Positions 128 to 20,775 of a stretch of 64,000 nt of DNA are shown here, in pieces. Where the stretch lies: the NCBI GenBank assembly GCA_030068525.1, contig JASJOS010000023.1, positions 1 to 64,000 on the forward strand. Direction: 5' to 3'. The notes beneath the pieces were generated by a model, which did no database searches, was not told where the DNA came from, and saw nothing but the letters and a program-made list of their open reading frames with translations. This DNA is from Xanthocytophaga flava. Lineage in GTDB: Bacteria > Bacteroidota > Bacteroidia > Cytophagales > 172606-1. The position numbers and the translations under genes were made by a program. How positions within the stretch are numbered: position 1 is the stretch's first letter; each line of letters begins with the position of its first letter.

Positions 128-150
128 ACTATATCCTGATTGTAAGTCCC

Positions 151-1038
151 ATTTCAATTCCTTACTGGTACAATTAAGATAATCACGCACCTAACCAATG
201 GTAATGTGGGTAGTTAATTTCAATTCCTCTATGGTACAATTAAGATAGATAGATAAGTCGAATGAGGAACTGACTCACTATCATTTCAATTCCTCTATGG
301 TACAATTAAGATCAGATTCTTTCGATAAGTCCGAATGATCAAAAAGCAATTTCAATTCCTCTATGGTACAATTAAGATCGTTCGTAGTATACTGTATCGC
401 GCTTAACAACTTCATTTCAATTCCTCTATGGTACAATTAAGATCACTACATTGTCTGTGTAACTATTAGCCGCTGTACATTTCAATTCCTCTATGGTACA
501 ATTAAGATCTATCACTGTTAGGTTAGCTACCTTGCAGAAAATAAATTTCAATTCCTCTATGGTACAATTAAGATTGTAGCGGAAATTTCTTTCCAGGTGC
601 TACTCTCTGCATTTCAATTCCTCTATGGTACAATTAAGATAAGGTTTTTACCCGCTCAGCTTCCTCTTTTTCTCGTCATTTCAATTCCTCTATGGTACAA
701 TTAAGATCAGGCGTTCCACAAGTTGGCCAGCTTCACTCTAATCAATTTCAATTCCTCTATGGTACAATTAAGATCCCTGCAGAGAAGTCCAGTATAGCCA
801 TTTGGTCCAAATTTCAATTCCTCTATGGTACAATTAAGATCAAAGTCCAGCCAAGAAATAGGTTAAGTAAGGCAAATTTCAATTCCTCTATGGTACAATT
901 AAGATTTGATTTTGCTTTCGGGAAAGGTTATTAACCAGCTGAATTTCAATTCCTCTATGGTACAATTAAGATTTTGAGTTTTGCCGGCCTGCTGCAAAAC
1001 TGTATCAGATTTCAATTCCTCTATGGTACAATTAAGAT
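151..1038 (-). CRISPR. CRISPR array 1, 14 repeats and 13 spacers
   Basis: Fourteen 30-bp repeats begin at 151, 217, 283, 349, 414, 479, 545, 611, 678, 745, 811, 876, 943 and 1009, with spacers of 35-37 bp. On the minus strand the repeat begins ATCTTAATTGTACC and ends GGAATTGAAAT, so the crRNA 5' handle would be ATTGAAAT, normal for type I-B. Thirteen repeats carry the central allele ATAGAGG. The most distal repeat (151-180) carries AGTAAGG, the major allele of array 2. The two alleles differ at three adjacent bases, repeat positions 16-18. The leader is on the right, next to cas2, so transcription runs leftward away from the cas genes. The distal end abuts an insertion sequence. Confidence 0.98.
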
Positions 1039-1157
1039 CCGTTAGAAACGAAGCTAAAAATAGCGTTTTCAGCACAAAAACGCAGCTTTTGTAATTTGTT
1101 TTTTCGTGAAAAGTCGTCGATGTGTAATACTACGATTGACCCAGGGGTTCGACGACT
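1039..1157 (-). promoter_or_regulatory. Leader of CRISPR array 1
   Basis: The 94 bases next to the first repeat (1039-1132) are identical to the reverse complement of the leader of array 2 (12497-12590), and similarity continues to 1157 with two substitutions and one indel in a G run. Leader identity beside both arrays shows that both are fed by the same Cas1-Cas2 machinery. It holds AAGTCGTCGA at 1111-1120 and the inverted form TCGACGACTT at 1149-1158; a third copy, TCGACGACTT, lies at 1240-1249 just after the cas2 stop. I could not identify a clear promoter box for the array. Confidence 0.85.
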
Positions 1158-3054: not shown

Positions 3055-3306
3055 ATGGTGACTCCAAATCAAGCCGATCTGATCAAATTGATCTGCCGCA
3101 CGCTGGAACGGATTTCAGACGCGGAGCAGATGATTGGAAATCTGCAAATCGAAACCGAATCGGAAACCAATCTTTCTCTGAGGCAATACAAACACCTGAA
3201 GGCCCGTCTGACCAAAGATCTTCATGGACTGCTCCAAAAGTTTGATGGAAACCTGCATGTGCAATACATTGAACGAGTGGAGGCTTACTCAGCCTCTGCT
3301 ACATAA
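3055..3306 (+). CDS. Small hypothetical protein inside the cas locus
   Basis: This 83-residue frame starts MVTPNQADLIKLICRTLERI and appears wholly helical and hydrophilic (many Glu, Lys, Leu), with no signal or membrane segment. Codon choice looks coding, and no gene explains it on the other strand except the last 22 bp, where it overlaps the 3' end of cas4 tail to tail. I do not recognise the family. Its orientation against the cas genes, together with the neighbouring palindromes, suggests an inserted element rather than a Cas component. The alternative is a chance frame. Confidence 0.5.
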   Translation: MVTPNQADLIKLICRTLERISDAEQMIGNLQIETESETNLSLRQYKHLKARLTKDLHGLLQKFDGNLHVQYIERVEAYSASAT

Positions 3307-3797
3307 CAAAACTCGTAATACGAACATTTTTTGCATAGCGCCTTTTGAATACGGGGCGGACAGGTCTGTGACTCAATCAGGACTTGTACGCCCTTTTCCC
3401 ATTCCGCCACCTGTAGTCGGTCGGCCTGGGTGAGGGGAGGGATAAGCTCAGTCTTACGCAGCTTCGGATATTCCAGTATAGCCGATGTGCCTGCAATGCC
3501 GTTTCGTTCGAGTACATACTGGTAATACCGTACCTGTGCTATATGTGCATGCTCAGCCTTGTCCGACTTCTTGGTTTCATGAATTACCCTTGCCTTCGCA
3601 TCAAAAAAGTCAATCTTAATCCCTTCCATTTCCAGCTGTGTATACCGTTCCGCTCGCTGCTGATAGGTTGTCTCCCCAATCAGCTTGCCTTCATACACGG
3701 TATCTGATGTGTGCTCCATCTGGATGTTGTTATGAAACAACCAAAGCTTGCGATGGCAGAGGAGGTAGTAGCCTATGTGAGTGGCAGTGATAGACAT
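3285..3797 (-). CDS. cas4: CRISPR-associated exonuclease Cas4
   Basis: The 170-residue protein matches the Dna2/Cas4 family: MSITATHIGYYLLCHRKLWLF with the first Fe-S cysteine near residue 14, RecB-like nuclease segment around KIDFFDAKARVIHETKKSDK, and the C-terminal cysteine cluster CPPRIQKALCKKCSYYEFC. Cas4 trims prespacers and helps choose the PAM during adaptation. It begins 2 bp after the cas3 stop, so it is translationally linked to the interference genes rather than to cas1-cas2. Length is normal. Confidence 0.94.
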   Translation of the reverse strand: MSITATHIGYYLLCHRKLWLFHNNIQMEHTSDTVYEGKLIGETTYQQRAERYTQLEMEGIKIDFFDAKARVIHETKKSDKAEHAHIAQVRYYQYVLERNGIAGTSAILEYPKLRKTELIPPLTQADRLQVAEWEKGVQVLIESQTCPPRIQKALCKKCSYYEFCYVAEAE

Positions 3798-3799
3798 AG

Positions 3800-6157
3800 T
3801 TAAATGATTACACTAGGATCATTCCATTGTTCTTGTTCATCATACAATAGACCTAATTCAGGATCATATTTTTTCTGAATAGTCCAGTATTCAATAGTTA
3901 TTGGATCGCCTTTTTTAGTTTGAATAACAAATGCTTCTTTAGACAAATTGTCATCTCGTTCATTGTTCAGTTGTGCAAACTTGTTTTTTCTAATCTGGAC
4001 CTTCAGACTTTCTGCTTTAATGAAATTAAACTCACTCAGATAGCCGATAAATCTTTCTTTCAAACCGATAGGTAAAACCTTAATACCATCAAATTGTTTG
4101 TAAAACTCCTCTTCAGAACGATTTGAGTGAACTAAAGGCGCTAATTGACTAACTGAGGCTTTGAGGAAAAAATAGACGGAATCAAACTTCTCTTTACTCT
4201 TTGTATCCCAATCAGGATAAACTTCATCTATCAATCTTTGCAACTTCTGTTCTTTTACAATGCCATTATCTTCTTTGATAATAGTTTCAAACGCTGCAAT
4301 TGTTCTTTTTATATTTTCAGCAGAATAGATATAAAAGTCAGTAGAATTGCTTTGTTGAAACACATAAACAGGACAAATACCTTTTATTCTTCTTCTATTG
4401 ATACGCCCAAACCTTTGTACTAATGCATCTATTGGAGCAGGTTCAGTGTAGATAACATCATAGTCAATGTCCAAACTAACCTCAATTGCTTGAGTTCCAA
4501 CCAGAAGTTGAATAGGATCATTCTGATCTTGTTCTCCTTGTTTTAGTGTTTTTTCATGTTCAGTCCGGTTTTCACCGTTGAAAGCACTATGCAATAAAAC
4601 AGATCTTGTTGCATAGGGTTTGAGAGATGTATAAACAGACTGAGCTTGTTTGACTGTATTACATACAACCAATACTTTAGTCCCTTTCTGTAAGTCAAGC
4701 TGGATTTGTTCCAGATTGTCACTCAACAATCCATGTTGTAAGCGGATCTGATGCCGATCAAAACTATCGTATAATTCCTGAGTAGCTTTTATTTCAGTAT
4801 ATGATCCAATAGCTGTTTCAATTTCTTTCTTTAAGAAAGAAGGCAATGTCGCTGTCATCACCATAACTTTTACCTTCAGATATTGAGTCGCATATTCCAG
4901 CAATACTTTTATCTGGGCAAATGTCTCTGGCGCATAGGCATGTATCTCATCAAATATGAAATAGCTACCTACCATTTCAAACAATCCTTGCTCAAAGCCT
5001 TTTAATCCAAAGAGATTTTTTAAAAGCTGGAAAGGTGTGATGACTTTGAGAGGTGTATAAATAGTACGAAATTTATGTTTGAGTTCTTCTATTTTCTCTT
5101 TGCGTACATTATTGGCATACTGGAAATCATCAAAATAGTCATATAGATAGTCACTTAACTTTCCATGTAGCATTCCCACTTTCTCCTGATCTCCCAAACC
5201 CTTTTCCGTACTTCCCAATCGTTCAAACATAGCATTAATGGATGCAGTAAAAGGAAGTATATAAAAGACTCTTCCTTGACCAGATAAGTGCATTTGCTTT
5301 TTTAGCCAGAGCATTGCACTTTCGGTTTTCCCAGATCCAGTAGGAGCTGTTAATATCAGATTCCCTTGTATTTCTCCTGCTGCAATCTGATGTTGGTGAA
5401 AATCCCCATTCTTTATTTGAAGCTCCTTTTGTTGTTTATCCAGAAAGGCAAAATCATCAGGTACAATATTTTGAATAGATGTAAGTCTGGCAGATCCTAA
5501 ATGGTCGCAATGTTTTAGTGCTCCAAACAATAATAATAACTCAAAGTAATCCGCATCACTTACTTTGATCAAGCCAGTAGTTGCTTTATTGAGGTAATTT
5601 GTAATGAGTTTGCCTGGATGTTTGGCAACGGGTAAATTTAATTTGAATGTATATTCTTTCTCAACAAGTTCGTGAATCAGTTTTACAAGAACATTCTTCT
5701 TAAACTCATTCACAAAATCCAGCCTTTCAGACTCTTCCCAATCATCCTCATCACTATTTTCTTTCTTGTAGCTTTTAGAAATGTACTTTAAATTTAGCTT
5801 GTCAAAATCTTTGTGGTGACCTGCAATTACCAGACGCATCAATTTTTTCTGGCTTTCCTCTAGTTCAAAACCTTCAATAAAGGGTAATGAAAACAATTCA
5901 TGTCTTTGTCCGAGCCAGTTGTTAGGTGCTCCGGATAGAATATTCTGAAATTCCACATGTCCCTTTCCAAGATCATGAAAAATGATACACTTCCTCAATA
6001 ATTCCCAAAATGGAAAGCGGATAGTATCTAGATGATTAACCTGAGGAAAAGACCTTTCCAGAAATGAGGCAATTAACAGGCAATCATCAATATGTATCTT
6101 TAAGGTAATACGAGGCTCTCCTGATTTAGCCAAAATATCGGTATATGAGCTAGTCAT
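3800..6157 (-). CDS. cas3: CRISPR-associated nuclease-helicase Cas3
   Basis: The 785-residue protein has an N-terminal HD nuclease (IIFHDLGKGHVEFQN near residue 60; further His in RHELFSLPF and AGHHKD) followed by an SF2 helicase with Walker A APTGSGKTESA near residue 271, the DEIH box (FDEIHAYAPETF) near 404, the SAT-like motif MTATLP, and motif VI-like QRFGRINRRR. It is recruited by Cascade to unwind and degrade target DNA. HD and helicase are in one chain, as is common in type I-B. It overlaps the cas5 3' end by 8 bp. Nothing essential looks lost. Confidence 0.96.
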   Translation of the reverse strand: MTSSYTDILAKSGEPRITLKIHIDDCLLIASFLERSFPQVNHLDTIRFPFWELLRKCIIFHDLGKGHVEFQNILSGAPNNWLGQRHELFSLPFIEGFELEESQKKLMRLVIAGHHKDFDKLNLKYISKSYKKENSDEDDWEESERLDFVNEFKKNVLVKLIHELVEKEYTFKLNLPVAKHPGKLITNYLNKATTGLIKVSDADYFELLLLFGALKHCDHLGSARLTSIQNIVPDDFAFLDKQQKELQIKNGDFHQHQIAAGEIQGNLILTAPTGSGKTESAMLWLKKQMHLSGQGRVFYILPFTASINAMFERLGSTEKGLGDQEKVGMLHGKLSDYLYDYFDDFQYANNVRKEKIEELKHKFRTIYTPLKVITPFQLLKNLFGLKGFEQGLFEMVGSYFIFDEIHAYAPETFAQIKVLLEYATQYLKVKVMVMTATLPSFLKKEIETAIGSYTEIKATQELYDSFDRHQIRLQHGLLSDNLEQIQLDLQKGTKVLVVCNTVKQAQSVYTSLKPYATRSVLLHSAFNGENRTEHEKTLKQGEQDQNDPIQLLVGTQAIEVSLDIDYDVIYTEPAPIDALVQRFGRINRRRIKGICPVYVFQQSNSTDFYIYSAENIKRTIAAFETIIKEDNGIVKEQKLQRLIDEVYPDWDTKSKEKFDSVYFFLKASVSQLAPLVHSNRSEEEFYKQFDGIKVLPIGLKERFIGYLSEFNFIKAESLKVQIRKNKFAQLNNERDDNLSKEAFVIQTKKGDPITIEYWTIQKKYDPELGLLYDEQEQWNDPSVII

Positions 6158-6809
6158 AGACTGAAAAATCTAGATCATGAAAAAAGACATCCACATTTAG
6201 TTCTTCATCTCTAAAAGCAGTTAGTTGACCAACGATGTTAGAGTTGTGATTGATAATAGAAAAAGGTTGTGTACCCAGATTTTGTCTTGGAATAGTATCT
6301 GTGAAATAAGTGGGTAAGGCCTGCACTACACCCGGCAAACGATATTTTAGTAAGGGAACAATTTGTCCTTTTATATTTACATCTGTAGCGACTTCCTGTA
6401 GTTGAATCTTTTTGATACTTCTATTATCAACAGATGCCAAATCATTCATACGGCCTAATACAAGAGGATAATAGGGTTGTCGAAAATAATTGACAATTTG
6501 CTCATCCTCTACATATAGACGTAAAAAGGCATCAAATAAGAATTCACGACGAATGACATTGGATTTGGCATCACGTCGATTTTTATCAACCTGATAAATG
6601 GTTTCCAGATCTGTTGCTTTGGCTCCATACTGGAAGTAATAGCCAATTTTAAACTTCTGATGGTTTACATATGATCCAGCAGCAGCGTTGATCAGTCCTA
6701 AAATAGTACTTAGAGGAGGTACTTCTAAAGTAGGTTGTACTCCACTAATAAGATTAGGGTAACGGAAGCTGGCTGTCCAGCTCCGTATATCTATTTTGAA
6801 TACTTCCAT
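6150..6809 (-). CDS. cas5: Cascade subunit Cas5 (type I-B, Cas5t-like)
   Basis: The 219-residue protein begins MEVFKIDIRSWTASFRYPNL and carries the PPLSTILGLINAAAG segment typical of I-B Cas5 of the Tneap branch. Cas5 caps the 5' handle of the crRNA next to Cas8 in Cascade. Its start overlaps the last base of cas7, and its stop overlaps the start of cas3 by 8 bp, so the four interference genes are translationally coupled. Assignment rests on sequence pattern and gene order. Confidence 0.92.
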   Translation of the reverse strand: MEVFKIDIRSWTASFRYPNLISGVQPTLEVPPLSTILGLINAAAGSYVNHQKFKIGYYFQYGAKATDLETIYQVDKNRRDAKSNVIRREFLFDAFLRLYVEDEQIVNYFRQPYYPLVLGRMNDLASVDNRSIKKIQLQEVATDVNIKGQIVPLLKYRLPGVVQALPTYFTDTIPRQNLGTQPFSIINHNSNIVGQLTAFRDEELNVDVFFHDLDFSVYD

Positions 6810-7897
6810 CAGTTAAGTTGGGTTTCCAGTTGGGAGCAATACAAATCAATAGCTTCGTTGATAGAATGTAACTTGACATTAGAAAACTTCTCGGAAAGTT
6901 TTTCCAGATCTGACTTATACTCTTCCATAAACCCACTTCTTCGTCCTATAAACACTGTGCCTTCAAACTGGTCTTTATAGTCATTCAGTACTTCTTCTAT
7001 CCCTTCAACATTCAATAAAACCCGATCATTATTAACACCATCATTGATCGCAACATGAGAAAATGGATGGTTACCAGTTGTCATTGTTGCCAGGATAATA
7101 AATTTAGGTGTCACATCACCCATATTATCTGTTTGCATAGCACCACCTGAAATGGTTTTGAGCGCTTTAATTGTATCAGTTATACGCTTAACGCGTGTTT
7201 CTTTAGGTAGCTGTACCAGTTTCTGAGCATTGCCTTTACTATCCTTTACAAACAAATCATCTATCTCCGTACTGCCATTTTGTAAAGCTGTCTTTTTGAG
7301 ATCCTCTGTCAGATTTTTAAATCCGGTTTTATTATAGGTTGCGAAAGTGCCTACTTGTGCCAGATCCAACGAAAACATTCCTTTCATGATAGCACTATAT
7401 TCTTCCTTGCTATAGGGAACCGAATCACCTTCCTGCCGAGCCATACTAGACCAATTCTCCCTTGTTTGAACTGCGCCAACAGAGATAATTGCTGAGTTCT
7501 TTAAAGGTGAAACCCGTGTTACTGTGACATCCTCTTTTTTCTCTTTTCCTTTTGCATCTAAAACTGGATTACCTTGTTCATCTCGTACTAAATCTTTAGC
7601 TGCTTTCATAAATCCAAAGACATCATCATCTGCATATTGAACAGGATTTGCAGCAGTAAAAGCGATCTTATTCTCACGTGTAATAGGAGAGAGCAGCCAT
7701 TGATGGTTTTTTTGTAGCGTTTCTCTCCACCAATAACGCCATGCTTGCCCAGAAACATAAGTATACATTCTGTCCTGTTTTTTGATTTTCTTAGTAGCAA
7801 CTGCATTGTCGAAGTTGCTGTTAGTGCTTTTGCCTGCATTGTTAAGTGCAACGACATCAACATCCAATAAAATAAATCCTTGTGTTTTTAGATTCAT
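6809..7897 (-). CDS. cas7: Cascade backbone subunit Cas7 (Cst2/DevR type)
   Basis: The 362-residue protein starts MNLKTQGFILLDVDVVALNNAGKS and has the DevR/Cst2 hallmarks: an early RRM strand, SGQAWRYWWRETLQ, and a late segment SGGAMQTDNMGDVTPKF that fits the family's loop near the palm domain. Multiple copies form the helical backbone that holds the spacer part of the crRNA and flips out every sixth base of the target duplex. It overlaps cas8b by 4 bp and cas5 by 1 bp. Confidence 0.94.
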   Translation of the reverse strand: MNLKTQGFILLDVDVVALNNAGKSTNSNFDNAVATKKIKKQDRMYTYVSGQAWRYWWRETLQKNHQWLLSPITRENKIAFTAANPVQYADDDVFGFMKAAKDLVRDEQGNPVLDAKGKEKKEDVTVTRVSPLKNSAIISVGAVQTRENWSSMARQEGDSVPYSKEEYSAIMKGMFSLDLAQVGTFATYNKTGFKNLTEDLKKTALQNGSTEIDDLFVKDSKGNAQKLVQLPKETRVKRITDTIKALKTISGGAMQTDNMGDVTPKFIILATMTTGNHPFSHVAINDGVNNDRVLLNVEGIEEVLNDYKDQFEGTVFIGRRSGFMEEYKSDLEKLSEKFSNVKLHSINEAIDLYCSQLETQLN

Positions 7898-9312
7898 TGT
7901 TCATTAGGGTTTTGAGGTTCTGGTTCAGCTTCAGAAATTTCTAGTTCAAATTTGATATTTGTTTCATGAAGTTTCTGGTAAATGGCTATTAAGAGCAGGT
8001 CCCTTACATCTTTCCAACTTGTACCATCAGGGAATAGATAGTTTACAAAATCATCAATTGTGATAAGTGGATTCTTGGCTCCCCGATTATAATTATCGGC
8101 AATTTGCTTAACTATAAATTGCCGAAGACCTTGACTGAATTTTTCTCCGTTCAATCGAGTAATAGATTTTTTTATAAGATCTTCACTTTGATCAGTTACA
8201 ATAAAATCTGCGAGATCTTTAATTTTTTCAATTGCTTTTTTGTCCATATTCTTTAAGCGGATTTGATAGGTTTCAACAATCTTGAAATTGAATCTGTGTT
8301 TTATACTCCAGTTTAAAATCTCACGAAGGATAGACTGGTTAAACAGGAGTTTGTCATAGATGCTGTTGCGCCAGGTTTTAAACCTGTCATAGCTGAAAGA
8401 CTCTTTCTTGTCCTGCCATTCTCCTGTTTGCTCATTAAAATTGCCTTCTTTTACTTTAGAATTGCGATAATGAGCATATACAAAGTTTTTCCAGTCTGTT
8501 TGCAAAAAAGGACTTAAACAGTAGACGTAAAATTTAAAGACAGAAGCTGGAAGCTGGTATAACTGGACTTCCGGACTGGCTCCAAAGTTTGTAAAGTGAT
8601 AAAGGTTCAGCATGACATCTTTCTCTGAAATATCTTCTTCACCTATGGATTTGCCAATACTTTGAATACAACTATCTGCGAACCCGAAAAGTACATTTGC
8701 AGGATTGATAAAATCTGATTTTAAGACTCCTTCAGATTTATGTATGCCTAAATCCTGAGAATTTTTGTAGCAATTCTGAAAAACAAAAAACTCGGTTACT
8801 TTATCATAATTGCTATTAATCAAAGCTATTTTGTCTCCTAGCTGGACTAATCCAAATGGCACAAAGAATATTCGAATCAATACCTCTTTTGAGAGATAGA
8901 GCCCTGCTTCAAATGAACTATGAAAATTGATAAAGGTGCCTGATCCAGACAGAATATGATTGTCTCTGCCAGCTAAAAAAAGTTTTGTCTTCTTACCTGT
9001 AACCCGGCAATAACCTTCTTTATAAGGAAGAGTCTCGTTAATAAGGCTCTTGTAAAATTTCATAGTTTCTTCAAACTTCTTTTCTCCCTGAAAAGCTGGC
9101 TGAGTGATTGTTGAATTCAAAAAGAATGCATTTAGCTTTCCACTCCATGCGTTGACATAGATTTTAGCCATTAACTCAATTAAATCGACAATATCCTTAT
9201 CTGAATTCTGAACTGATAAGTATTTTATGACATACCCCCCCACATCAGCAAATGGATCACCAGTTGTTTCGATTAGCGATTGATAATCTATATTCGTTAT
9301 ACTTGTATTCAT
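7894..9312 (-). CDS. cas8b: Cascade large subunit Cas8b (Cst1-like)
   Basis: The 472-residue protein opens with TTGDPFADVGGYVIKYLS near residue 15, a pattern I associate with Cas8b1/Cst1 proteins, and is the first gene of the interference operon. A zinc-binding pair could be present (YCRVTGKKTKLFLAGRDNH) but looks degenerate. Cas8 recognises the PAM and recruits Cas3. It is followed by cas7 with a 4-bp overlap. A TTG-N16-TAnnTTTG promoter lies 57-83 bp upstream of the ATG and coincides with the pseudo-spacer match described at 9392-9413. Subtype call rests on order cas8-cas7-cas5-cas3 and on Cas7 type. Confidence 0.88.
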   Translation of the reverse strand: MNTSITNIDYQSLIETTGDPFADVGGYVIKYLSVQNSDKDIVDLIELMAKIYVNAWSGKLNAFFLNSTITQPAFQGEKKFEETMKFYKSLINETLPYKEGYCRVTGKKTKLFLAGRDNHILSGSGTFINFHSSFEAGLYLSKEVLIRIFFVPFGLVQLGDKIALINSNYDKVTEFFVFQNCYKNSQDLGIHKSEGVLKSDFINPANVLFGFADSCIQSIGKSIGEEDISEKDVMLNLYHFTNFGASPEVQLYQLPASVFKFYVYCLSPFLQTDWKNFVYAHYRNSKVKEGNFNEQTGEWQDKKESFSYDRFKTWRNSIYDKLLFNQSILREILNWSIKHRFNFKIVETYQIRLKNMDKKAIEKIKDLADFIVTDQSEDLIKKSITRLNGEKFSQGLRQFIVKQIADNYNRGAKNPLITIDDFVNYLFPDGTSWKDVRDLLLIAIYQKLHETNIKFELEISEAEPEPQNPNEQ

Positions 9313-9368
9313 ATTGATATTATTCTTGGAGTAAATGAGAACTGAATACTAGAAGATGGATTATTAAG

Positions 9369-9395
9369 CAAATCTATAAATATAAATTTATCCAA
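9369..9395 (-). promoter_or_regulatory. Promoter of the cas8b-cas7-cas5-cas3 operon
   Basis: Read on the minus strand, TTG (complement of CAA at 9393-9395) is followed after 16 bp by TAGATTTG (complement of 9369-9376), an exact match to the Bacteroidota -7 element TAnnTTTG. The spacing is at the short end of what is known for the phylum, but the same spacing is seen at 32757-32783. The cas8b ATG is 57 bp downstream. The -33 element is covered by the PAM-like CCA and the first base of the pseudo-spacer match. Confidence 0.65.
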
Positions 9396-9413
9396 GTATA
9401 TTGGTAGCTAAAT
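9392..9413 (+). promoter_or_regulatory. Predicted Cascade binding site for the crRNA-like RNA
   Basis: From 9395 the plus strand matches the pseudo-spacer that starts at 10185: positions 1-5, 7-11, 13-15 and 17-19 are identical, with mismatches at 6, 12 and 16 and little identity after 19. Type I Cascade does not pair every sixth spacer base, so mismatches at 6 and 12 should cost nothing. The three bases before it are CCA, in the PAM position and similar to PAMs known for some I-B systems. The flanks do not match the flanks of the pseudo-spacer, so this is not a simple duplication. It lies between two divergent promoters. Confidence 0.75.
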
Positions 9414-9428
9414 ATATTATAATATTAT

Positions 9429-9436
9429 TAAATTTG
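9429..9436 (+). promoter_or_regulatory. -7 box for the JAMM-protein cassette
   Basis: TAAATTTG is an exact TAnnTTTG match 21 bp upstream of the ATG at 9458. The nearest upstream TTG is 9402-9403 region inside the predicted Cascade site, 25 bp away, which is longer than usual, so the -33 element is doubtful. Cascade bound at 9392-9413 would lie just upstream or over the -33 region and could hinder this promoter as well as the divergent cas promoter. Confidence 0.5.
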
Positions 9437-9457
9437 TAAAAATATCTTTTAATCATT

Positions 9458-9979
9458 ATGACCTATCTCAATACTCATTTGCCCTTGTTTAAGGATGATG
9501 CTAATACCGTGGAAAAAGTCATCAGTAAAATTCGCTATGATACTCATGAGAATGTCTATATTCTTAAAAATGGCGAGCAAGTTTGGCGATTTCGTGGAGA
9601 AACAGACAGGGTCACTATTGATAATATCTATCTTGTAAATATGATTGATGCTAGTATTATACATAATCATCCTGGTGGTTTTTCTTTTTCTAAAGAGGAT
9701 GTTGAAGCTATTATACGATATAATGCTAAAGAGTTGATCCTTGTAACTCAGGAATACATCTATTCTATCACTAGGCCTAAGAATGGATGGAACATTAATT
9801 TTGATGATCCTCAAATTGATGTATTGTATAATACATGCCAGTTTCTTGCAAGGACTGCTTTGGATAAAAAAGCTCATGAACTTCTTTTTAATGAAAGGGA
9901 AATAAAACTTATTCATTATATTTGGGACATCTTTTTTCGTGAACTTGGAATAAGTTATGTCCAGAAAAAACACATATAA
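9458..9979 (+). CDS. JAMM/MPN-motif protein inserted in the cas locus
   Basis: The 173-residue product contains IIHNHPGGFSFSKEDVEA: His69, His71, Ser78 and Asp81 follow the HxHPxxxxxSxxD pattern of JAMM-type metalloproteins, in a version with the spacing seen in JAB-like domains of phage-head/MuF and polymorphic-toxin proteins rather than RadC. YSITRPKNGW follows. No signal peptide or membrane segment is seen. It is on the strand opposite to cas8b and cas6, which flank it, and is more AT-rich than its neighbours. Its stop overlaps the next small gene by 23 bp. A peptidase activity is inferred only from the motif; a role as the toxin of a CreTA-like pair is speculation. Confidence 0.7.
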   Translation: MTYLNTHLPLFKDDANTVEKVISKIRYDTHENVYILKNGEQVWRFRGETDRVTIDNIYLVNMIDASIIHNHPGGFSFSKEDVEAIIRYNAKELILVTQEYIYSITRPKNGWNINFDDPQIDVLYNTCQFLARTALDKKAHELLFNEREIKLIHYIWDIFFRELGISYVQKKHI

Positions 9980-10157
9980 CCCTGCTTCAGCCTTTGACGA
10001 TCGTAGTCTTCCTAATGAGAAATGTTCTATATCTACTGAAAGGTCTGATGAAATTGATGCATTCATGAAACCCATAATAGAGGAAGAAATCGAAAAACTC
10101 AGACGAGAAAATCCAGATATGTTTCCTTTTTCTAAAAAAGAAAAACTAACTCATTAA
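9957..10157 (+). CDS. Small hypothetical protein after the JAMM gene
   Basis: A 66-residue hydrophilic protein, MSRKNTYNPASAFDDRSLP at the start and a charged helix near the end (EEEIEKLRRENPDMF). It overlaps the end of the JAMM gene by 23 bp in another frame, which suggests translational coupling. No family is recognised. Its stop codon touches the first degenerate CRISPR repeat, so the RNA element is probably in the same transcript. It could be a partner or inhibitor of the JAMM protein, but nothing in the sequence proves that. Confidence 0.55.
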   Translation: MSRKNTYNPASAFDDRSLPNEKCSISTERSDEIDAFMKPIIEEEIEKLRRENPDMFPFSKKEKLTH

Positions 10158-10236
10158 TACGTGTTTCCTAATAGGAATTGAAATAGTATTTTGGTTGCTT
10201 AATTGAAACCTAATTGTACCATAAGGGAATTTATGT
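10155..10236 (+). ncRNA. CRISPR-like regulatory RNA (CreR/CreA type candidate)
   Basis: Two degenerate repeats enclose a 22-bp pseudo-spacer. The left one (10155-10184) keeps the repeat's 3' end, AGGAATTGAAAT, which supplies a complete crRNA 5' handle. The right one (10207-10236) matches the repeat at 23 of 30 positions, including TAATTGTACCATA. Both have the orientation of array 2. The pseudo-spacer (10185-10206) matches the cas8b promoter region at 9395-9413 at 16 of 19 positions. Known CreA/CreR RNAs in type I loci have this build: degenerate repeats, a spacer with partial, seed-centred match to a local promoter, and a place near cas6/cas8. It is followed by a strong terminator. Processing by Cas6 and repression by Cascade are inferred. 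Confidence 0.75.
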
Positions 10237-10249
10237 ATTAATATTTTTG

Positions 10250-10282
10250 ATCCTACTTTTTTAAAAAGTAGGATTTATTTTA
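10250..10282 (+). terminator. Rho-independent terminator after the crRNA-like element
   Basis: A 12-bp perfect stem (ATCCTACTTTTT at 10250-10261 with AAAAAGTAGGAT at 10263-10274) is followed by TTATTTTA on the plus strand. On the minus strand the stem would be followed by an A-rich stretch, so it serves the plus-strand cassette. It sets the 3' end of the JAMM gene, small gene and crRNA-like RNA transcript about 14 bp after the right pseudo-repeat. Confidence 0.75.
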
Positions 10283-10310
10283 GAGGCCCTTATTGTTACT
10301 TAATACTATA

Positions 10311-11087
10311 TTATTTCACCTCACAACACCCAAACCCCTCCGCATTATACCTGCCAAATCCTCCGAGTAAGCCGATTTCCAGTAGTTCACGAGGAGCGGT
10401 GAGTTCGAAGTCAAACAGGTAACCTTTTATCTTGGTCGCTTCTGGTGAATGGTCTTTCAATGTTACCAGTCGAGCTTTGGGTGCTGCACTCAGCAAGCGA
10501 AACTCCATAGGTGCATCCGTCCAACTGGCTTGTAAAGACTGTCCACTGGCAATGTATTTGTCGAGCAAGTTGGTGAACAGCAGCTCCTGATAGCCTTCCT
10601 GAAGAGGCGAAAAGTAGTCGTCATGTCTACGGTCGTTTTTGCGGCTTACTACCAGTGGTGACAACGTACGCAGGTGCACTGTTTCGGACGGTATCTGCCA
10701 GGCCAGACTTTCGACCTGCTTTACCCGGAAATCTACCTGCGACACTCTATCTCCCAACCGAAACTCCTGTTCGGCAAACAAACCCATTACAAAGTTCTCA
10801 GCCGCCTTGTCGGTATAAAAAGATACCATAAGACCTACTTCGTCTGAAAGCACCGCAATGCGATCACTTCCTTTTCGGATATCGAAACGTGGAATCTGCA
10901 AAGCGGAGAATGTAAAGAACTTGAACCGTTTCTGTCCGACAGAATAGCCACTATTATGCAGAAAATCAGCATATGTCTCATCCGCTTTGCCTATCACTTT
11001 GTATATCCATGACGACAACGGATAGGCATAGTTAATCGGCAATGTTGATTGGCTTCCGGTTTTTTGTAAGGTTAGTTTCAGTCGCAT
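10311..11087 (-). CDS. cas6: CRISPR RNA endoribonuclease Cas6
   Basis: The 258-residue protein has two RAMP-like halves and ends with the glycine-rich loop LLGGFGRYNAEGFGCCEVK, the signature of Cas6. An early histidine-free segment makes the catalytic residue hard to name; candidates are around YAYPLSSWIYKV. It cleaves the pre-crRNA 8 nt before each spacer. It lies apart from the rest of the effector genes, separated from cas8b by the plus-strand JAMM/crRNA-like cassette, and 98 bp after the WYL gene with which it may share a transcript. Confidence 0.93.
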   Translation of the reverse strand: MRLKLTLQKTGSQSTLPINYAYPLSSWIYKVIGKADETYADFLHNSGYSVGQKRFKFFTFSALQIPRFDIRKGSDRIAVLSDEVGLMVSFYTDKAAENFVMGLFAEQEFRLGDRVSQVDFRVKQVESLAWQIPSETVHLRTLSPLVVSRKNDRRHDDYFSPLQEGYQELLFTNLLDKYIASGQSLQASWTDAPMEFRLLSAAPKARLVTLKDHSPEATKIKGYLFDFELTAPRELLEIGLLGGFGRYNAEGFGCCEVK

Positions 11088-12590: not shown

Positions 12591-14075
12591 ATCTTAATTG
12601 TACCAGTAAGGAATTGAAATGGGCTTAATCTGCTCCTCACGAGGTACAAACTCTAATCTTAATTGTACCAGTAAGGAATTGAAATTGCATATATTCGCTT
12701 TTTTGGCAACTGGCAATTGCCAATCTTAATTGTACCAGTAAGGAATTGAAATTTAAAATTTGCGTCTTCACTATAATAATCACTGTTTATCTTAATTGTA
12801 CCAGTAAGGAATTGAAATCTACGTACCGTTCTGGATCACGTGCCAGGTGTCGAAATCTTAATTGTACCAGTAAGGAATTGAAATTGAAGTGCTAATGAAG
12901 CGCTCCAAATTTCATTTCCAATCTTAATTGTACCAGTAAGGAATTGAAATCGGTGGAACAGGCTTGCTAACGGGTTTAGTTTTCTCTTGATCTTAATTGT
13001 ACCAGTAAGGAATTGAAATTGAGTTCTTGCTTTTATAAGCTCCCGATATTTCGCCTATCTTAATTGTACCAGTAAGGAATTGAAATCGCGCTTCCTAACA
13101 CGTAACCAAGCACAATCAGGAAATCTTAATTGTACTAGTAAGGAATTGAAATTTCGTGTGGAATGACAGTGGGCGGTCTGGCGGAAGAATCTTAATTGTA
13201 CCAGTAAGGAATTGAAATTGAGTTTAGATAGTTGGGTTTAGTTCTTAGGCTTGGATCTTAATTGTACCAGTAAGGAATTGAAATTACCTGATACAGATAG
13301 CCTGTTGAGTATAAAGTTTCATCTTAATTGTACCAGTAAGGAATTGAAATGGGGAGAATATAAAGATTGTTTTCCGATTAATATACCATCTTAATTGTAC
13401 CAGTAAGGAATTGAAATGGAAAAAATATTGTTAGGCGAGAATATCTGCAGACCATCTTAATTGTACCAGTAAGGAATTGAAATAGAAATGACAAAGAAAG
13501 AAGGGATTGCTTTTGCGGCATCTTAATTGTACCAGTAAGGAATTGAAATCACGAGAATAAGGCAGGTCTAATGTTTGGCAAGCTGCATCTTAATTGTACC
13601 ATAGAGGAATTGAAATATAATTGTAGGATCTACAGAGAGTGCATACAATATGATCTTAATTGTACCATAGAGGAATTGAAATTAGTAGAAAAACTATGAA
13701 CAGAACAAAGACTACCCTATCTTAATTGTACCATAGAGGAATTGAAATTGGTTAGTTCTTCGGGTCTAAATGTGATATGCTGATATCTTAATTGTACCAT
13801 AGAGGAATTGAAATAAAGGAACAATAGTCTTTTATATTGAAGCTCCACCCATCTTAATTGTACCATAGAGGAATTGAAATTGATCAGCGCGACCTGGTTA
13901 GGCTGGAGGCCTGGCTGATCTTAATTGTACCATAGAGGAATTGAAATTCCGGTTAAGCAACTCAAGCTTTGTCATTTCCAGACTATCTTAATTGTACCAT
14001 AGAGGAATTGAAATGCAGGAAAGGGTTTTTCTTAATCAGATCCAGATAATAATCTTAATTGTACCATAGAGGAAT
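12591..14075 (+). CRISPR. CRISPR array 2, 23 repeats and 22 spacers
   Basis: Thirty-bp repeats begin at 12591, 12656, 12723, 12789, 12855, 12921, 12990, 13057, 13123, 13189, 13255, 13321, 13388, 13454, 13520, 13587, 13653, 13719, 13785, 13851, 13918, 13985 and 14052; spacers are 35-39 bp. The first 15, next to the leader, carry AGTAAGG in the centre (the ninth has one extra change, TACTAGT). The last eight carry ATAGAGG, the allele of array 1. The final repeat is cut to 24 bases and runs into the start of the next gene. Array direction is rightward, away from cas. Confidence 0.98.
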
Positions 14076-14078
14076 CCT

Positions 14079-14426
14079 ATGCGAATTATAAAATCTATAC
14101 TCCTGATCAGCTTTCTGCTATTTTCTTTGCCCTCTTATTGTACAGTTGATGCCTTAGCAGTTAATCATCTCACAAAAGAAATATATGTGTTTGAAGAGTC
14201 TGAATATGCTGGAATAGGATGGGCGGTAGTAGCTGGAGAATCAGCTCTATGGGAAGAGCAGGAGAAGTATTTTTTAGCAAAGGGATATCGTTATACTACT
14301 ACTCCTAATACAGTAGACAATATTTTTTTCAGTGTTTTACTCAGCATTGTGGGATTTTTGATAATTATTTGGCTAAAGAGGATTCGATTTGGTACAAAGT
14401 ATAAAATGATCTTCAAACGAATTTAA
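14079..14426 (+). CDS. Small membrane protein beside CRISPR array 2
   Basis: A 115-residue protein with an N-terminal signal or membrane segment (RIIKSILLISFLLFSLPSY), a central soluble part and a second hydrophobic helix (residues about 83-99) followed by a basic tail. I do not recognise the family. Its ATG is 4 bases after the truncated last CRISPR repeat, whose GAGGAA could act as a ribosome-binding site. This makes an origin of the array's end by recombination upstream of an older gene plausible. It ends in the shared terminator at 14464. Confidence 0.6.
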   Translation: MRIIKSILLISFLLFSLPSYCTVDALAVNHLTKEIYVFEESEYAGIGWAVVAGESALWEEQEKYFLAKGYRYTTTPNTVDNIFFSVLLSIVGFLIIIWLKRIRFGTKYKMIFKRI

Positions 14427-16701: not shown

Positions 16702-17007
16702 AAAGGATAGGTACTGAGTGAGAATACTATTTTGTGTTAATCATACACAATTCCCTGAAAAATACGTAAGACTTTTTATACTGTCAAATGGGACCGGCAA
16801 TAGATAGTCTATATATACGTAAAGGAAATATGTGGCAGCACTATATTTATTGGCTAGCAGGGTAGCATTGAAAAGATTATGTTTTTTTCTAAGAAAATTG
16901 ATTACTACTTCATAGAGAGTAGTATATATGTTCAGACAAAATAATCAGGGTGAAGGTTTAACACTCTGAAACAGGCTTTGAATAACTTTATCTTTGTAAT
17001 TCATTCT

Positions 17008-20000
17008 ATGATAAAAACTTTACCCCGTGTTATTTTATTTCTATTACTTTTTATAGGATTTACTTCAGAAGTATGGGCACAACAATATACATTTAAACGA
17101 ACAGTTGGTTCTGTTGCAATAAACAGACCTAACGATATTACTGTTGATGGTGATGGGTATATATATGTATCAAGCTATGAGAATGGTATTGCGAAGTTAA
17201 ATCCTGCTGGTGAACTCGTATTCTTCAAAAGTTTAAAAGAAGGGTTTGTAACAAGGGATATTACACTCGATCGTCAGGGGAATTTATGGGCAATAACTGA
17301 TTATGACAGTCGTGTGAAGAAGTTTGACTCAAAGGGTAATGTTGTGTTTGGATTTGGTGCAGCAAGTGCATCAGGTTCTGGTAATGGGTATTTTAAGAAC
17401 CCAATTGGTATTAGTGTAGATCCAAAAGGGAATGTTTGGGTTGCCGATGCAGGCAATAACCGTGTTCAAAAATTTGATCCAACAGGAAAGTTTCTGCTTA
17501 CGTTTGGCTCTCAGGGTAGTGGAGATGGGCAGTTTACTACAATGAATGACCTCTCTGCTGATAACCAAGGTAATATTTGGGTTGTGGATAAAGGAAACAA
17601 TCGTCTCCAGAAGTTTGACTCAAACGGTAATTTTTTGCTAAAAATAGGAGCGTATGGTAGTGCCAATGGACAATTTAATTCTCCTGAAGATGTAAAGATT
17701 GATAATCAAGGCAATGTGTGGGTGGCAGACAAAGATAATTACCGCATTCAGAAGTTTGATTCCACTGGCAGATTTCTGTCAAAATTTGGGGCTCAGGGTG
17801 GAAATTTTGATCAATTATCTTCTCCTGGCAATATATGCCTGGACAAACAGAATAATCTCTACATACTGGATGGTAGTTTGGGGATTAAAAAATATGATCC
17901 TACTATGCATTTGCTACAAACGTTTCCATTTTTAAGCTCAGACAATGGAAAATTTGCCCTTCCAGCAGATGTACAGGTAGATAGTCAGGGTAATGTTTGG
18001 GTAGTAGATAGAGGAAATTTTCGTGTTCAGAAGTTTGATTCTAATGGAAAGTTTTTACTAAAAGTGGGAGGATATGGTACGACTAATGGACTATTCGATA
18101 CGCCTGGTAACATCGCAGTAGATAATCTGGGGAACTTGTGGGTAATCGATGGAGGAACCTACCGCGTTCAGAAATTCAATGCTAATGGTACATTTCTACT
18201 TAAATTTGGTTCTCAGGGAACCTCCAATGGACAATTTGTTGATCTGAGGGACATTGCAACTGACAAGCAGGGGAATGTTTGGATTTGGGATGCTGGCAAT
18301 GGACGTATTCAGAAATTTAATTCGAGTGGAAAATTTCTATTATCATTTGGCTCACTTGGAGCTGGAGATAGTGAGTTTAGCAATTCTTCTTTCATCTCAA
18401 CAGATCTGAATGGGAACTTATGGGTAATGGATTCGGGTAACTCCTCTCTGAAAAAATTTGATTCTACAGGTAAGTTTCTCTTTAAGGTTGGGATGCAAGG
18501 TTCTGGTAATGGACAGTTTTATAATCCGATTGACATAACTGCCGATGTACAAGGTAATATCTGGATAGGAGATCGGGATAACAATCGCTTCCAGAGGTTT
18601 GATTCCAATGGAAAGTTTTTATCACAAACGGATTCCCCAAATGTAATCCCTCTTTATTTTTGCTTTGACTCCTATGGGGCTATGTATTGCACTACGATGG
18701 CAGGCGTTCTGGTATATACCCCTAATTCATCTGTAAATCCTATCTATTCTTTTATAAAAGGTCGGATCTATTCAGACCTGAATCAGAACTGTACCTTTGA
18801 TGGTACTGATAAGCCTGTTTCGGATGTGGTAGTATTGGCAAATCCAGGCAGTTATTATGGCATTACAGATAAAAACGGGAATTATCGTATTGCAGTTGAT
18901 ACTGGATCATATACTGTAAGTCAGGTATTAAATAATACCATTGGTAGTGTGTTGCATCCTATCTGCCCAGCAAATAATATTTCATCATTGGTTTCTATTA
19001 AGACCAAAGGTGATAGTATCTCTAACATCAATTTTGGAAATACAGTCACGGCGATTCCTCACCTTGATATTGCAGTAAGCTCTGATCGCAGGCGCAGATG
19101 CTTTTCTAGTCAGACTGTTGTCACTTTCTCTAATACAGGCTATGCAGATGCTCAGGGTGTGAAAGTGTATGTAAAAATGCCTGAAAATGTGATTCTGCAA
19201 ACTGCTGACAAGCCATTTACAATAACTCCGGACTCTAGTTATGTGTTTTCTATAGGAACACTTGGTGCTAATCAAACAAGTACTATTCAAATCACTGATT
19301 CAGTAGCTTGTATAGCTGATATTACAGGTCTGACAGCTTGTACCAAAGTATGGATTACTCCGGCTAATGATTATACTTTACCTGAGAGTTCCACCTGGGA
19401 TAAGTCAGATATTATGCTGACAGGAAAATGTGTAGAGAACGGACGTGTGCAAATGGTAATTAAGAACATCGGGCATGCAATGGCCGATAGTGCGGAGTTT
19501 CGTATATTGCTCAATGCCCAACTGGCGTTACGCAAAAACTATAAACTAGAGGCAGGGGATAGCCTGGTACTACGGATTCCTGCCAATGGTAAAACAGTCC
19601 GTCTGGAAGCCAATCAACGTCCTGACCATCCACGCAAATCACAAACCAACCTGACTATTGAAGGTTGTGTGGCTTCTACCAGTGATGTGGTCAGCAAGGG
19701 ATTTGTAGACGCCTTGCCACAAGATGACGCAGAACCCGAAGTAGCAGTCGAATGCTTACCTATCATTGACTCATTTGACCCTAATGATAAGTTGGTAAGT
19801 CCTGTAGGTACATCGAAAGACCATTATACACCGACAAATACGGAACTGAAATACACCATTCGCTTTCAGAATACAGGAACCGACTATGCCTACACAGTAA
19901 CTGTCGTTGATACTCTTTCAGAGAGTTTGGATATTTCCACTCTACAGATGGGATCTTCTTCACATATGTATTCCTTGAAGGTTACAGGTAAGGGCCGTCC

Positions 20001-20775
20001 GGTATTGACCTGGAAATTCAATACTATCAATCTACCTGATAGCACCCGTGATCAAGCTGGTAGTAATGGGTTTGTTCAGTTTACCATTAAACCCAAAGCC
20101 AACCTGGCAGAAAAAGCACTAATTGAAAACTTTGCTGATATCTTCTTCGATTACAATGATCCTGTTCGTACCAATACCACAGCCAATGTCCTATATGATG
20201 TACCACCAGTGATTGCCCCACAAAATCAGTTGTCTGAGAAAGGAGTCATATTCCTGCCTCCAACCATCAGCAGCTTTACTCCCGAAACTGCACAGATTGG
20301 TGAGCAGATCACGATTACCGGAACCAATTATCAGACCATACTGACTGACAACACGGTTACAATCAATGGGAAAAAGGCTACTGTGGTTTCTGCTACAGAA
20401 ACACAACTAGTTGTGACTATACCTACAGGAGTAACAGCTGGCAAGGTAAGTGTGACTACTCTGGGTGGAACTGCCACCAGTGAAACAGAATTTGTCATGA
20501 AGCCTACAGCTACCGAACAGCCAGAATGGAGCCGGTCGATTGTTATTTCACCAAATCCATCAGATGGCAGGTTTACGATTGACTTTTCTCAAGCCTCCAC
20601 TCGTATAGAAACCATTGACGTGTATAATAACCTGGGACAGAAAATATATACACAAGCTGTTTCGCAAAGTAGCTATCAGAAAGAACTGGATCTGTCGGGT
20701 AATGGTGTAGGGATTTATCTGGTCGTTTTCAAAACCGATAAAGGCAATGCCACTCGGAAAGTTATAGTGAAGTAA
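17008..20775 (+). CDS. Secreted NHL-propeller protein with T9SS sorting tail
   Basis: The 1255-residue protein starts at the ATG at 17008: a signal peptide follows at once (IKTLPRVILFLLLFIGFTSEVWAQ), while the longer frame from a TTG at 16978 would place it internally; a TAnnTTTG box at 16989-16996 also favours 17008. Residues 30-580 hold about twelve 47-residue NHL repeats (GNVWVADAGNNRVQKFD type), enough for two six-bladed propellers. An SdrD-B/carboxypeptidase-regulatory-like fold (GRIYSDLNQNCTFDGTDKPV), DUF11-like and gliding-type domain (SFDPNDKLVSP), an IPT/TIG domain (about 1084-1165) and a type A T9SS C-terminal domain (VISPNPSDGRF, to the end) follow. Probably cell-surface or released; ligand unknown. 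Confidence 0.88.
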   Translation: MIKTLPRVILFLLLFIGFTSEVWAQQYTFKRTVGSVAINRPNDITVDGDGYIYVSSYENGIAKLNPAGELVFFKSLKEGFVTRDITLDRQGNLWAITDYDSRVKKFDSKGNVVFGFGAASASGSGNGYFKNPIGISVDPKGNVWVADAGNNRVQKFDPTGKFLLTFGSQGSGDGQFTTMNDLSADNQGNIWVVDKGNNRLQKFDSNGNFLLKIGAYGSANGQFNSPEDVKIDNQGNVWVADKDNYRIQKFDSTGRFLSKFGAQGGNFDQLSSPGNICLDKQNNLYILDGSLGIKKYDPTMHLLQTFPFLSSDNGKFALPADVQVDSQGNVWVVDRGNFRVQKFDSNGKFLLKVGGYGTTNGLFDTPGNIAVDNLGNLWVIDGGTYRVQKFNANGTFLLKFGSQGTSNGQFVDLRDIATDKQGNVWIWDAGNGRIQKFNSSGKFLLSFGSLGAGDSEFSNSSFISTDLNGNLWVMDSGNSSLKKFDSTGKFLFKVGMQGSGNGQFYNPIDITADVQGNIWIGDRDNNRFQRFDSNGKFLSQTDSPNVIPLYFCFDSYGAMYCTTMAGVLVYTPNSSVNPIYSFIKGRIYSDLNQNCTFDGTDKPVSDVVVLANPGSYYGITDKNGNYRIAVDTGSYTVSQVLNNTIGSVLHPICPANNISSLVSIKTKGDSISNINFGNTVTAIPHLDIAVSSDRRRRCFSSQTVVTFSNTGYADAQGVKVYVKMPENVILQTADKPFTITPDSSYVFSIGTLGANQTSTIQITDSVACIADITGLTACTKVWITPANDYTLPESSTWDKSDIMLTGKCVENGRVQMVIKNIGHAMADSAEFRILLNAQLALRKNYKLEAGDSLVLRIPANGKTVRLEANQRPDHPRKSQTNLTIEGCVASTSDVVSKGFVDALPQDDAEPEVAVECLPIIDSFDPNDKLVSPVGTSKDHYTPTNTELKYTIRFQNTGTDYAYTVTVVDTLSESLDISTLQMGSSSHMYSLKVTGKGRPVLTWKFNTINLPDSTRDQAGSNGFVQFTIKPKANLAEKALIENFADIFFDYNDPVRTNTTANVLYDVPPVIAPQNQLSEKGVIFLPPTISSFTPETAQIGEQITITGTNYQTILTDNTVTINGKKATVVSATETQLVVTIPTGVTAGKVSVTTLGGTATSETEFVMKPTATEQPEWSRSIVISPNPSDGRFTIDFSQASTRIETIDVYNNLGQKIYTQAVSQSSYQKELDLSGNGVGIYLVVFKTDKGNATRKVIVK

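Follow-up and report, generated by a model that had tools for sequence, protein, structure and literature searches.

Between cas8b and cas6 of a type I-B CRISPR system in Xanthocytophaga flava, at positions 10155-10236 of the window (the whole stretch of 64,000 nucleotides analysed here), two degenerate repeats enclose a single short pseudo-spacer, and we consider it highly probable (about 0.85), judging by sequence comparison, that this element is a CreR-type gene whose product is a cas-regulating, crRNA-like RNA of the resident system that represses the cas8b operon. That a short crRNA-like RNA of partial match guides Cascade to the promoter of cas8b, as the earlier note had proposed, is supported by the same design in 20/63 distinct cas8b loci, by mismatches that gather at guide positions 6 and 12, by the CCA beside the site and by a -7 box directed at cas8b in 15/19 loci. 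The same note had left the neighbourhood incomplete, having overlooked a JAB-like ORF and a 66-aa ORF between target and guide, the former with a predicted promoter that shares the target.

The mini-array within its type I-B locus

The CRISPR system beside the mini-array is of type I-B, with Cas8b1/Cst1, Cas7 (Cst2), Cas5t, Cas3, Cas4 and Cas6 (Table 1), and the segment 1251-2523 presumably encodes Cas1 and Cas2. Running leftward from 9312 are cas8b, cas7, cas5, cas3 and cas4, presumed to form one operon; the plus strand between cas8b and cas6 carries the 173-aa JAB-like ORF, the 66-aa ORF, the mini-array and a terminator-like hairpin. Both CRISPR arrays are mixtures of two repeat variants, ACCAGTAAGG and ACCATAGAGG, one giving way to the other at about 13587 in array 2, and the first appearing once, at the far end, in array 1. 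Repeats of another sort, about 141 nt long, occupy 17275-18621 within a large ORF (16978-20775) that appears beta-propeller-like by eye.

Our inspection agrees with the earlier description of the mini-array in its coordinates, its intact left handle, the 23/30 identity of its right repeat and the 22-nt length of its pseudo-spacer. The left repeat (psi-R1) keeps its last 11 nt intact, handle included, and folding gives weak hairpins for the pseudo-repeats. The element displays the following features of CreR genes: 1) it is a crRNA-like gene outside the arrays, with degenerate repeats and a retained handle; 2) its guide, at 22 nt, is below the 24- and 26-nt interference thresholds published for other I-B systems; 3) this guide is partly complementary to the predicted cognate cas promoter, with the 16/19 match lying beside a cas8b-directed -7 box; and 4) the PAM of the resident system is present at the target. 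It differs from an ordinary immune mini-array in its guide length, its self target and its lack of a full-length foreign spacer; spacers in the two real arrays measure 35-39 nt (n=35 spacers).

Table 1. Features of the mini-array, its target and the surrounding type I-B locus (window coordinates)
Feature	Position	Strand	Basis or remark
CRISPR array 1	147..1059	-	
cas4	3285..3797	-	
cas3	3800..6157	-	
cas5 (Cas5t)	6150..6809	-	
cas7 (Cst2/DevR)	6809..7897	-	
cas8b (Cas8b1/Cst1)	7894..9312	-	first gene of presumed target operon
-7 box TAGATTTG (TAnnTTTG) toward cas8b	9369..9376	-	motif; target at about -31 to -49 from predicted start
CCA PAM of target (TCCA at site)	9392..9394	+	equals PAM at both array-spacer protospacers found
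Target, 16/19 match to guide, mismatches 6, 12, 16	9395..9413	+	sequence comparison
-7 box TAAATTTG toward JAB-like ORF	9429..9436	+	motif; target at about -46 to -28 from predicted start
173-aa ORF, HNHPxGxSFSxxDV motif, JAB-fold-like	9458..9979	+	predicted fold weakly RadC/JAMM (JAB)-like
66-aa ORF overlapping end of JAB-like ORF	9957..10157	+	
Left degenerate repeat psi-R1	10155..10184	+	18/30 identical to array repeat ATCTTAATTGTACCATAGAGGAATTGAAAT; sequence, hand count
Intact 8-nt 5' handle ATTGAAAT	10177..10184	+	sequence
Pseudo-spacer (guide), 22 nt	10185..10206	+	sequence; shorter than array spacers
Right degenerate repeat psi-R2	10207..10236	+	23/30 to array repeat; sequence, hand count
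Terminator-like hairpin, then TTTATTTT	10249..10275	+	-12.6 kcal/mol, z -2.7; 3' of psi-R2
cas6	10311..11087	-	presumed processing enzyme; 3' end faces guide gene
CRISPR array 2	12591..14081	+	source of intact repeat and of both PAM-test spacers

Target site and predicted promoters

The match of the pseudo-spacer to the target, with its three mismatches and the CCA before it, was confirmed exactly as first described. It also exceeds chance, as had been claimed, since dinucleotide shuffles of 9313-9457 reached at least 16/19 on either strand in 5/20000 cases and in 0/20000 with a CCN PAM; this is far less extreme than the 1e-7 per offset originally attached to it, yet still clear. Within the 64 kb the guide itself and the target are the only sites reaching 16/19, and in the whole 9.49-Mb genome, with the skip positions left free, the target is the sole mismatch-free occurrence of CCN-AGTAT-N-TTGGT-N-GCT. 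With up to 2 mismatches this pattern occurs at 27 places in the genome, versus 14 for the reversed pattern. As for the PAM, the array 2 spacers at 12951-12989 and 13617-13652 match the sister species (G002) at 38/39 and 35/36 positions, and CCA precedes both protospacers. Comparison of array 1 with 8 relatives, and of the G002 array with the genome that contains the window, returned repeats only and no protospacer, and no array spacer matched the phage records.

The Bacteroidota -7 box, TAnnTTTG (PMC7366714, PMC9723704), lies at -12 to -5 (PMC9723704), according to the parts of these sources available to us. Because the 173-aa and 66-aa plus-strand ORFs stand between the target and the mini-array, the target falls between two divergent starts, and counting from the two boxes in Table 1, which predict starts near 9364 for cas8b and near 9441 for the JAB-like ORF, it covers the -33 region of both predicted promoters.

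Recurrence of guide and target among cas8b loci

Orthologues of cas8b were found in 11/390 genomes of the order, own genome included; 54/56 further loci were taken from genome contigs (excluding L065 and L080, whose contigs begin inside cas8b) and 3 more came from a phylum search in which 10/395 genomes matched, own included and 6 of them weakly. Each guide following a handle-like motif was compared with sites in the region preceding cas8b, to a distance of at most 3.5 kb. With CCN required and a threshold of at least 13/17, 22/65 regions gave a match, versus 1-3/65 in six guide-target swaps among loci; with a looser handle and sites within 1.2 kb the figures were 24/68 versus 0-2/68 in eight swaps; and with no PAM required, at least 14/17 and 700 nt, they were 21/63 distinct loci versus 0-1/63 in six swaps and 1/63 with a decoy handle. 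The last scan omits L021, L022, L025 and L026, which are the same contigs as L043, L066, L047 and L077, and also L024, a near relative of L045. From the 22/65 we obtained 20 loci, the window included, by setting aside L033, in which the guide turned out to be a regular array spacer, as well as L021, a duplicate of L043. From the 24/68, we judged L063, L087, L018 and the extra matches in L043/L021 and L058 to be chance, being without surrounding repeat-like sequence, and L020 (PAM TCA) was handled separately. L038 has two sites, of which the one with CCA was counted; in L064 the target is on the opposite strand, over a leftward -7 box; and L070 belongs to the 22/65 set and fails the stricter scan that gives 24/68.

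The same design is thus present in 20/63 distinct cas8b loci, with guides that differ and each fit a site upstream of their own cas8b. These loci include Chryseobacterium, Sphingobacteriaceae, Saprospiraceae, Niastella, Flectobacillus, Arcicella, Bacteroides, Prevotella, several Bacteroidales and others, together with a MAG labelled Chlorobiota (L053) and an entry labelled Helicobacter cetorum (L072), the latter label probably wrong; a few of the 63 come from other phyla. By the scan criteria the other 43/63, the sister species among them, have no such element, three of these (L050, L052, L079) having less than 700 nt upstream and L020 having one placed otherwise. A psi-R2 motif starts 17-26 nt past the handle in 12/20 loci (26 in the window, where the guide is 22 nt in repeat register), and no second repeat was recognised in 8/20 (L034, L038, L039, L040, L042, L046, L056, L058). 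Several of these eight guide genes have a terminator-like stem soon after the guide. Guide and target are 790 nt apart in the window versus 60-243 nt in the other 19 loci.

Cascade leaves every sixth base unpaired. Across the 20 loci, whose sites were picked by total match (at least 13/17) with no weighting by position, mismatches number 0 at positions 1-5, 10 at position 6, 3 at 7-11, 12 at position 12 and 13 at 13-17, with 9 to 14 at each of positions 18-22. Positions 6 and 12 hold 22/38 of the mismatches within 1-17, against 4.5 expected and a maximum of 14 in 200000 random placements. Independent divergence of guide and promoter at seed positions, which the earlier note had named as evidence against its proposal, was looked for and is not seen in these counts for positions 1-5 and 7-11, an outcome that selection of sites at 13/17 or better itself favours. 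The co-variation that it had suggested seeking in relatives does occur, in joint changes at paired positions: between L039 and L042 guide and target change together at 13, 14, 15 and 17, the only other change being at 12. The skip-position mismatches and the joint changes point to purifying selection. CC[AGT] precedes 19/26 sites found without a PAM rule.

In 15/19 loci (L064, with its target on the other strand, being excluded) a leftward TAnnTTTG occurs at a distance of 1-25 nt from the PAM, versus a background of 8% and a largest value of 9 in 200000 simulations; the box is missing from the expected place in 4/19. The distance from target to cas8b ranges from 21 to 439 nt. Among the 9 loci in which it is 168-439 nt, 8 have an ORF of 40-137 codons in the cas8b direction within the gap and the ninth, L046, has an open frame running into cas8b; hence the target is mostly at the start of the unit that contains cas8b. 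In L043 and L059 the interval from target to cas8b contains small ORFs rich in cysteine, which by eye resemble zinc ribbons. A rightward TAnnTTTG occurs close to the beginning of psi-R1 in 13/20 loci, against a background of 23%, which suggests that the guide is a small gene with its own promoter. The window has no consensus -7 box just before psi-R1, so that the promoter of its own guide is uncertain.

Proposed mode of action, intervening genes and known systems

According to the proposed mechanism, Cas6 would cut the transcript at both degenerate repeats and an RNA made up of the handle and the 22-nt guide would be loaded into Cascade, which would then settle on the target adjacent to CCA, flipping out bases 6 and 12, at which no match is needed. 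Cascade so bound would occupy the -33 region of the predicted cas8b-cas7-cas5-cas3-cas4 promoter, and since a guide of this length would not allow cleavage by Cas3, the outcome would be repression. As in the published CreR model (PMC12737573, PMC13131331), the operon would be released if Cascade ran short, was taken up by crRNAs or was inhibited by an anti-CRISPR. In the available parts of two reports, 24-bp spacers of Haloarcula I-B repress without interference (PMC10989794) and spacers of up to 26 nt in Parageobacillus I-B repress without cleavage (PMC10551041); given such short-spacer repression in type I-B, repression of the cas8b operon by Cascade is the most likely action. Removal of the cas6-cas8 gap of H. 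hispanica lowered transcription from cas8 to cas2, and a strong promoter was placed there in the accessible portion of that study (PMC9458426), which fits the same gap as a control point here.

The JAB-like ORF has no match in Pfam or NCBIfam and a weak match to a PHROG of unknown function. Foldseek places RadC and JAMM/JAB1 chains near the top of the matches to its structure model (mean pLDDT 81), the best with E 2.3e-3, none at or below 0.001, TM about 0.3-0.4 and cytidine deaminases ranking close; by sequence, its matches to solved structures are weak and unconvincing. We found no relative in viral contigs, and in 345 genomes of the class only the own genome and one weak match. Relatives occur in G001 (three with a following ORF, one fragment) and G007 (one, partial), neither of which yielded a cas8b. 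Four of them (L028, L029, L030, L032) are followed by a small overlapping ORF, similar to the 66-aa family in L028 (E 8e-4) and weakly in L032 (0.007), and assigned by position and by an FDDR motif seen by eye in L029 and L030. The JAB-like gene and its small overlapping ORF thus possibly constitute a two-gene module that has no family name. In G002 and in Emticicia (L022/L066) a solitary relative of the 66-aa ORF is found beside cas8b. Between G002 and the window the flanks align at 93-96% and 9316-10314 has no blastn counterpart, so that the cas8b-cas6 gap differs as a block; in G002 (L125) nothing but a distant relative of the 66-aa ORF is present there, and this segment may undergo exchange as a cassette. 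Far from its cas genes G002 has a solitary repeat-like sequence (L123, G002:C1:792936), whose downstream bases have no convincing match near the G002 cas locus. Close to a contig end, L124 (G000:C16:112292-112383) consists of two repeats and a single spacer; it adjoins sequence that by eye resembles an IS end and is probably an array remnant.

This pair raises the alternative that the RNA mainly represses the JAB-like and 66-aa genes, as a CrePA-like guard, with loss of Cascade releasing them as a toxin-like response, possibly in conjunction with repression of cas8b. The two genes are situated between the target and the guide, are oriented like the guide and begin 45 nt past the target; their predicted promoter overlaps the target, and because its -33 region is covered a guarded module is possible. 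JAB-like genes with a small overlapping ORF also exist outside cas8b loci, in G001 and G007. An analogous arrangement is seen at L020:7501-8260, where a mini-array accompanies a gene pair between cas6 and cas8b that comprises a DUF5615 gene (Pfam) and a partner we take to be DUF433-like; the guide there matches, at 18/18 nt, a TCA-preceded site a short way 5' of the DUF5615 gene, which makes L020 a candidate for a CrePA-like unit that encodes a PIN-type protein. Taken together, the two pairs render a guarded gene pair plausible, if unproven. However, 19/20 loci have no ATG-started ORF of more than 39 codons in the guide direction between target and guide, so that the design can do without genes of this sort, and neither KilA-N nor a known toxin family is detected in the JAB-like ORF, its PADLOC match to AbiEii being weak (E 0.027). 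We regard this alternative as unlikely. A tentative combination, to which we likewise give low odds, is that Cascade at this one site shuts off the two divergent promoters together, so that the cas operon is silenced and the JAB-like/66-aa module guarded.

A CreTA arrangement, in which the stretch from target to guide would encode an RNA toxin with the guide as antitoxin, shares with haloarchaeal creTA the order of target, 60-243 nt and guide in 19 loci (PMC8501985, in part), and some of the gaps have ORFs of 10-39 codons. Nevertheless, the -7 box near psi-R1 makes the target unlikely to be the promoter of the guide in the loci that have it, in 15/19 the box next to the target is directed at cas8b, and the gap in the window consists of two protein-sized ORFs; a CreTA arrangement is very unlikely here, although a tiny RNA toxin might escape notice in the sequence. 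It is very improbable, too, that the element is what remains, now without function, of an immune mini-array carrying a self-spacer: its degenerate repeats and its absence from the sister species fit decay, but the signs of purifying selection across loci and a guide shorter than array spacers do not. Two similar short sequences near a promoter might also be operators for an ordinary DNA-binding repressor, yet one copy follows a handle in the counted loci (by selection), sites found without a PAM rule mostly come after CC[AGT], mismatches concentrate at 6 and 12, and the sequences differ between loci, leaving this the least credible account. On these points we rejected duplicate operators, a dead relic and CreTA.

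The preferred reading, repression of the cas8b operon, would extend RNA-guided Cascade self-control to Bacteroidota-type I-B loci, about a third of those examined (20/63) carrying the design, and it supplies a search signature: a handle, a short guide, CCN, mismatches at 6 and 12, and the -33 region of an operon promoter. The loci would be natural examples of short-guide repression, with cas control and a possible guarded pair on one target in the window. Were both promoters blocked, a cell whose Cascade is lost or inhibited would make more Cas proteins and at the same time set free an effector of a new, non-KilA-N type that Cascade had guarded, and the element would be a CreR that captured a CrePA-like module. 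The kind of regulator, CreR, is already known. The earlier note was aware of no such RNA in Bacteroidota I-B loci, and no account of this RNA in Bacteroidota was seen among the literature matches listed (titles and abstract starts), from a search that stopped short of the primary CreR paper and of a 2023 survey whose subject is reportedly CRISPR-derived regulatory RNAs. Its novelty was nonetheless overstated, because CreR autorepression in type I-B has been published (PMC13131331). In the available text, this and a second paper describe a crRNA-like RNA near cas genes, partly complementary to a cas promoter and bringing about autorepression (PMC13131331, PMC12737573), also termed mini-CRISPR RNA (PMC12948488). 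The string 'bacteroid' is absent from the texts of PMC12737573 and PMC8501985 as far as these were available, and the latter mentions bacterial CreTA modules in its supplement.

With CrePA, in which the protein toxin CreP is guarded by CreA, the window shares a protein gene right after the target and the orientation of the guide, and differs in that this gene is JAB-fold-like rather than KilA-N and is followed by a small ORF (PMC12737573, in part). It resembles CreTA in having two degenerate repeats, psi-R1 worse than psi-R2, a guide to a nearby promoter and a position between cas6 and cas8 (PMC9458426, PMC8501985, both in part), whereas its target is the predicted cas8b-operon promoter and no RNA toxin is apparent. 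With CreR of types I-B, I-E and V-A it has in common a crRNA-like RNA that is encoded close to cas genes and is partly complementary to a cas promoter, and it differs in belonging to a Bacteroidota I-B system with a TAnnTTTG promoter and, in the window, in having two extra genes between target and guide.
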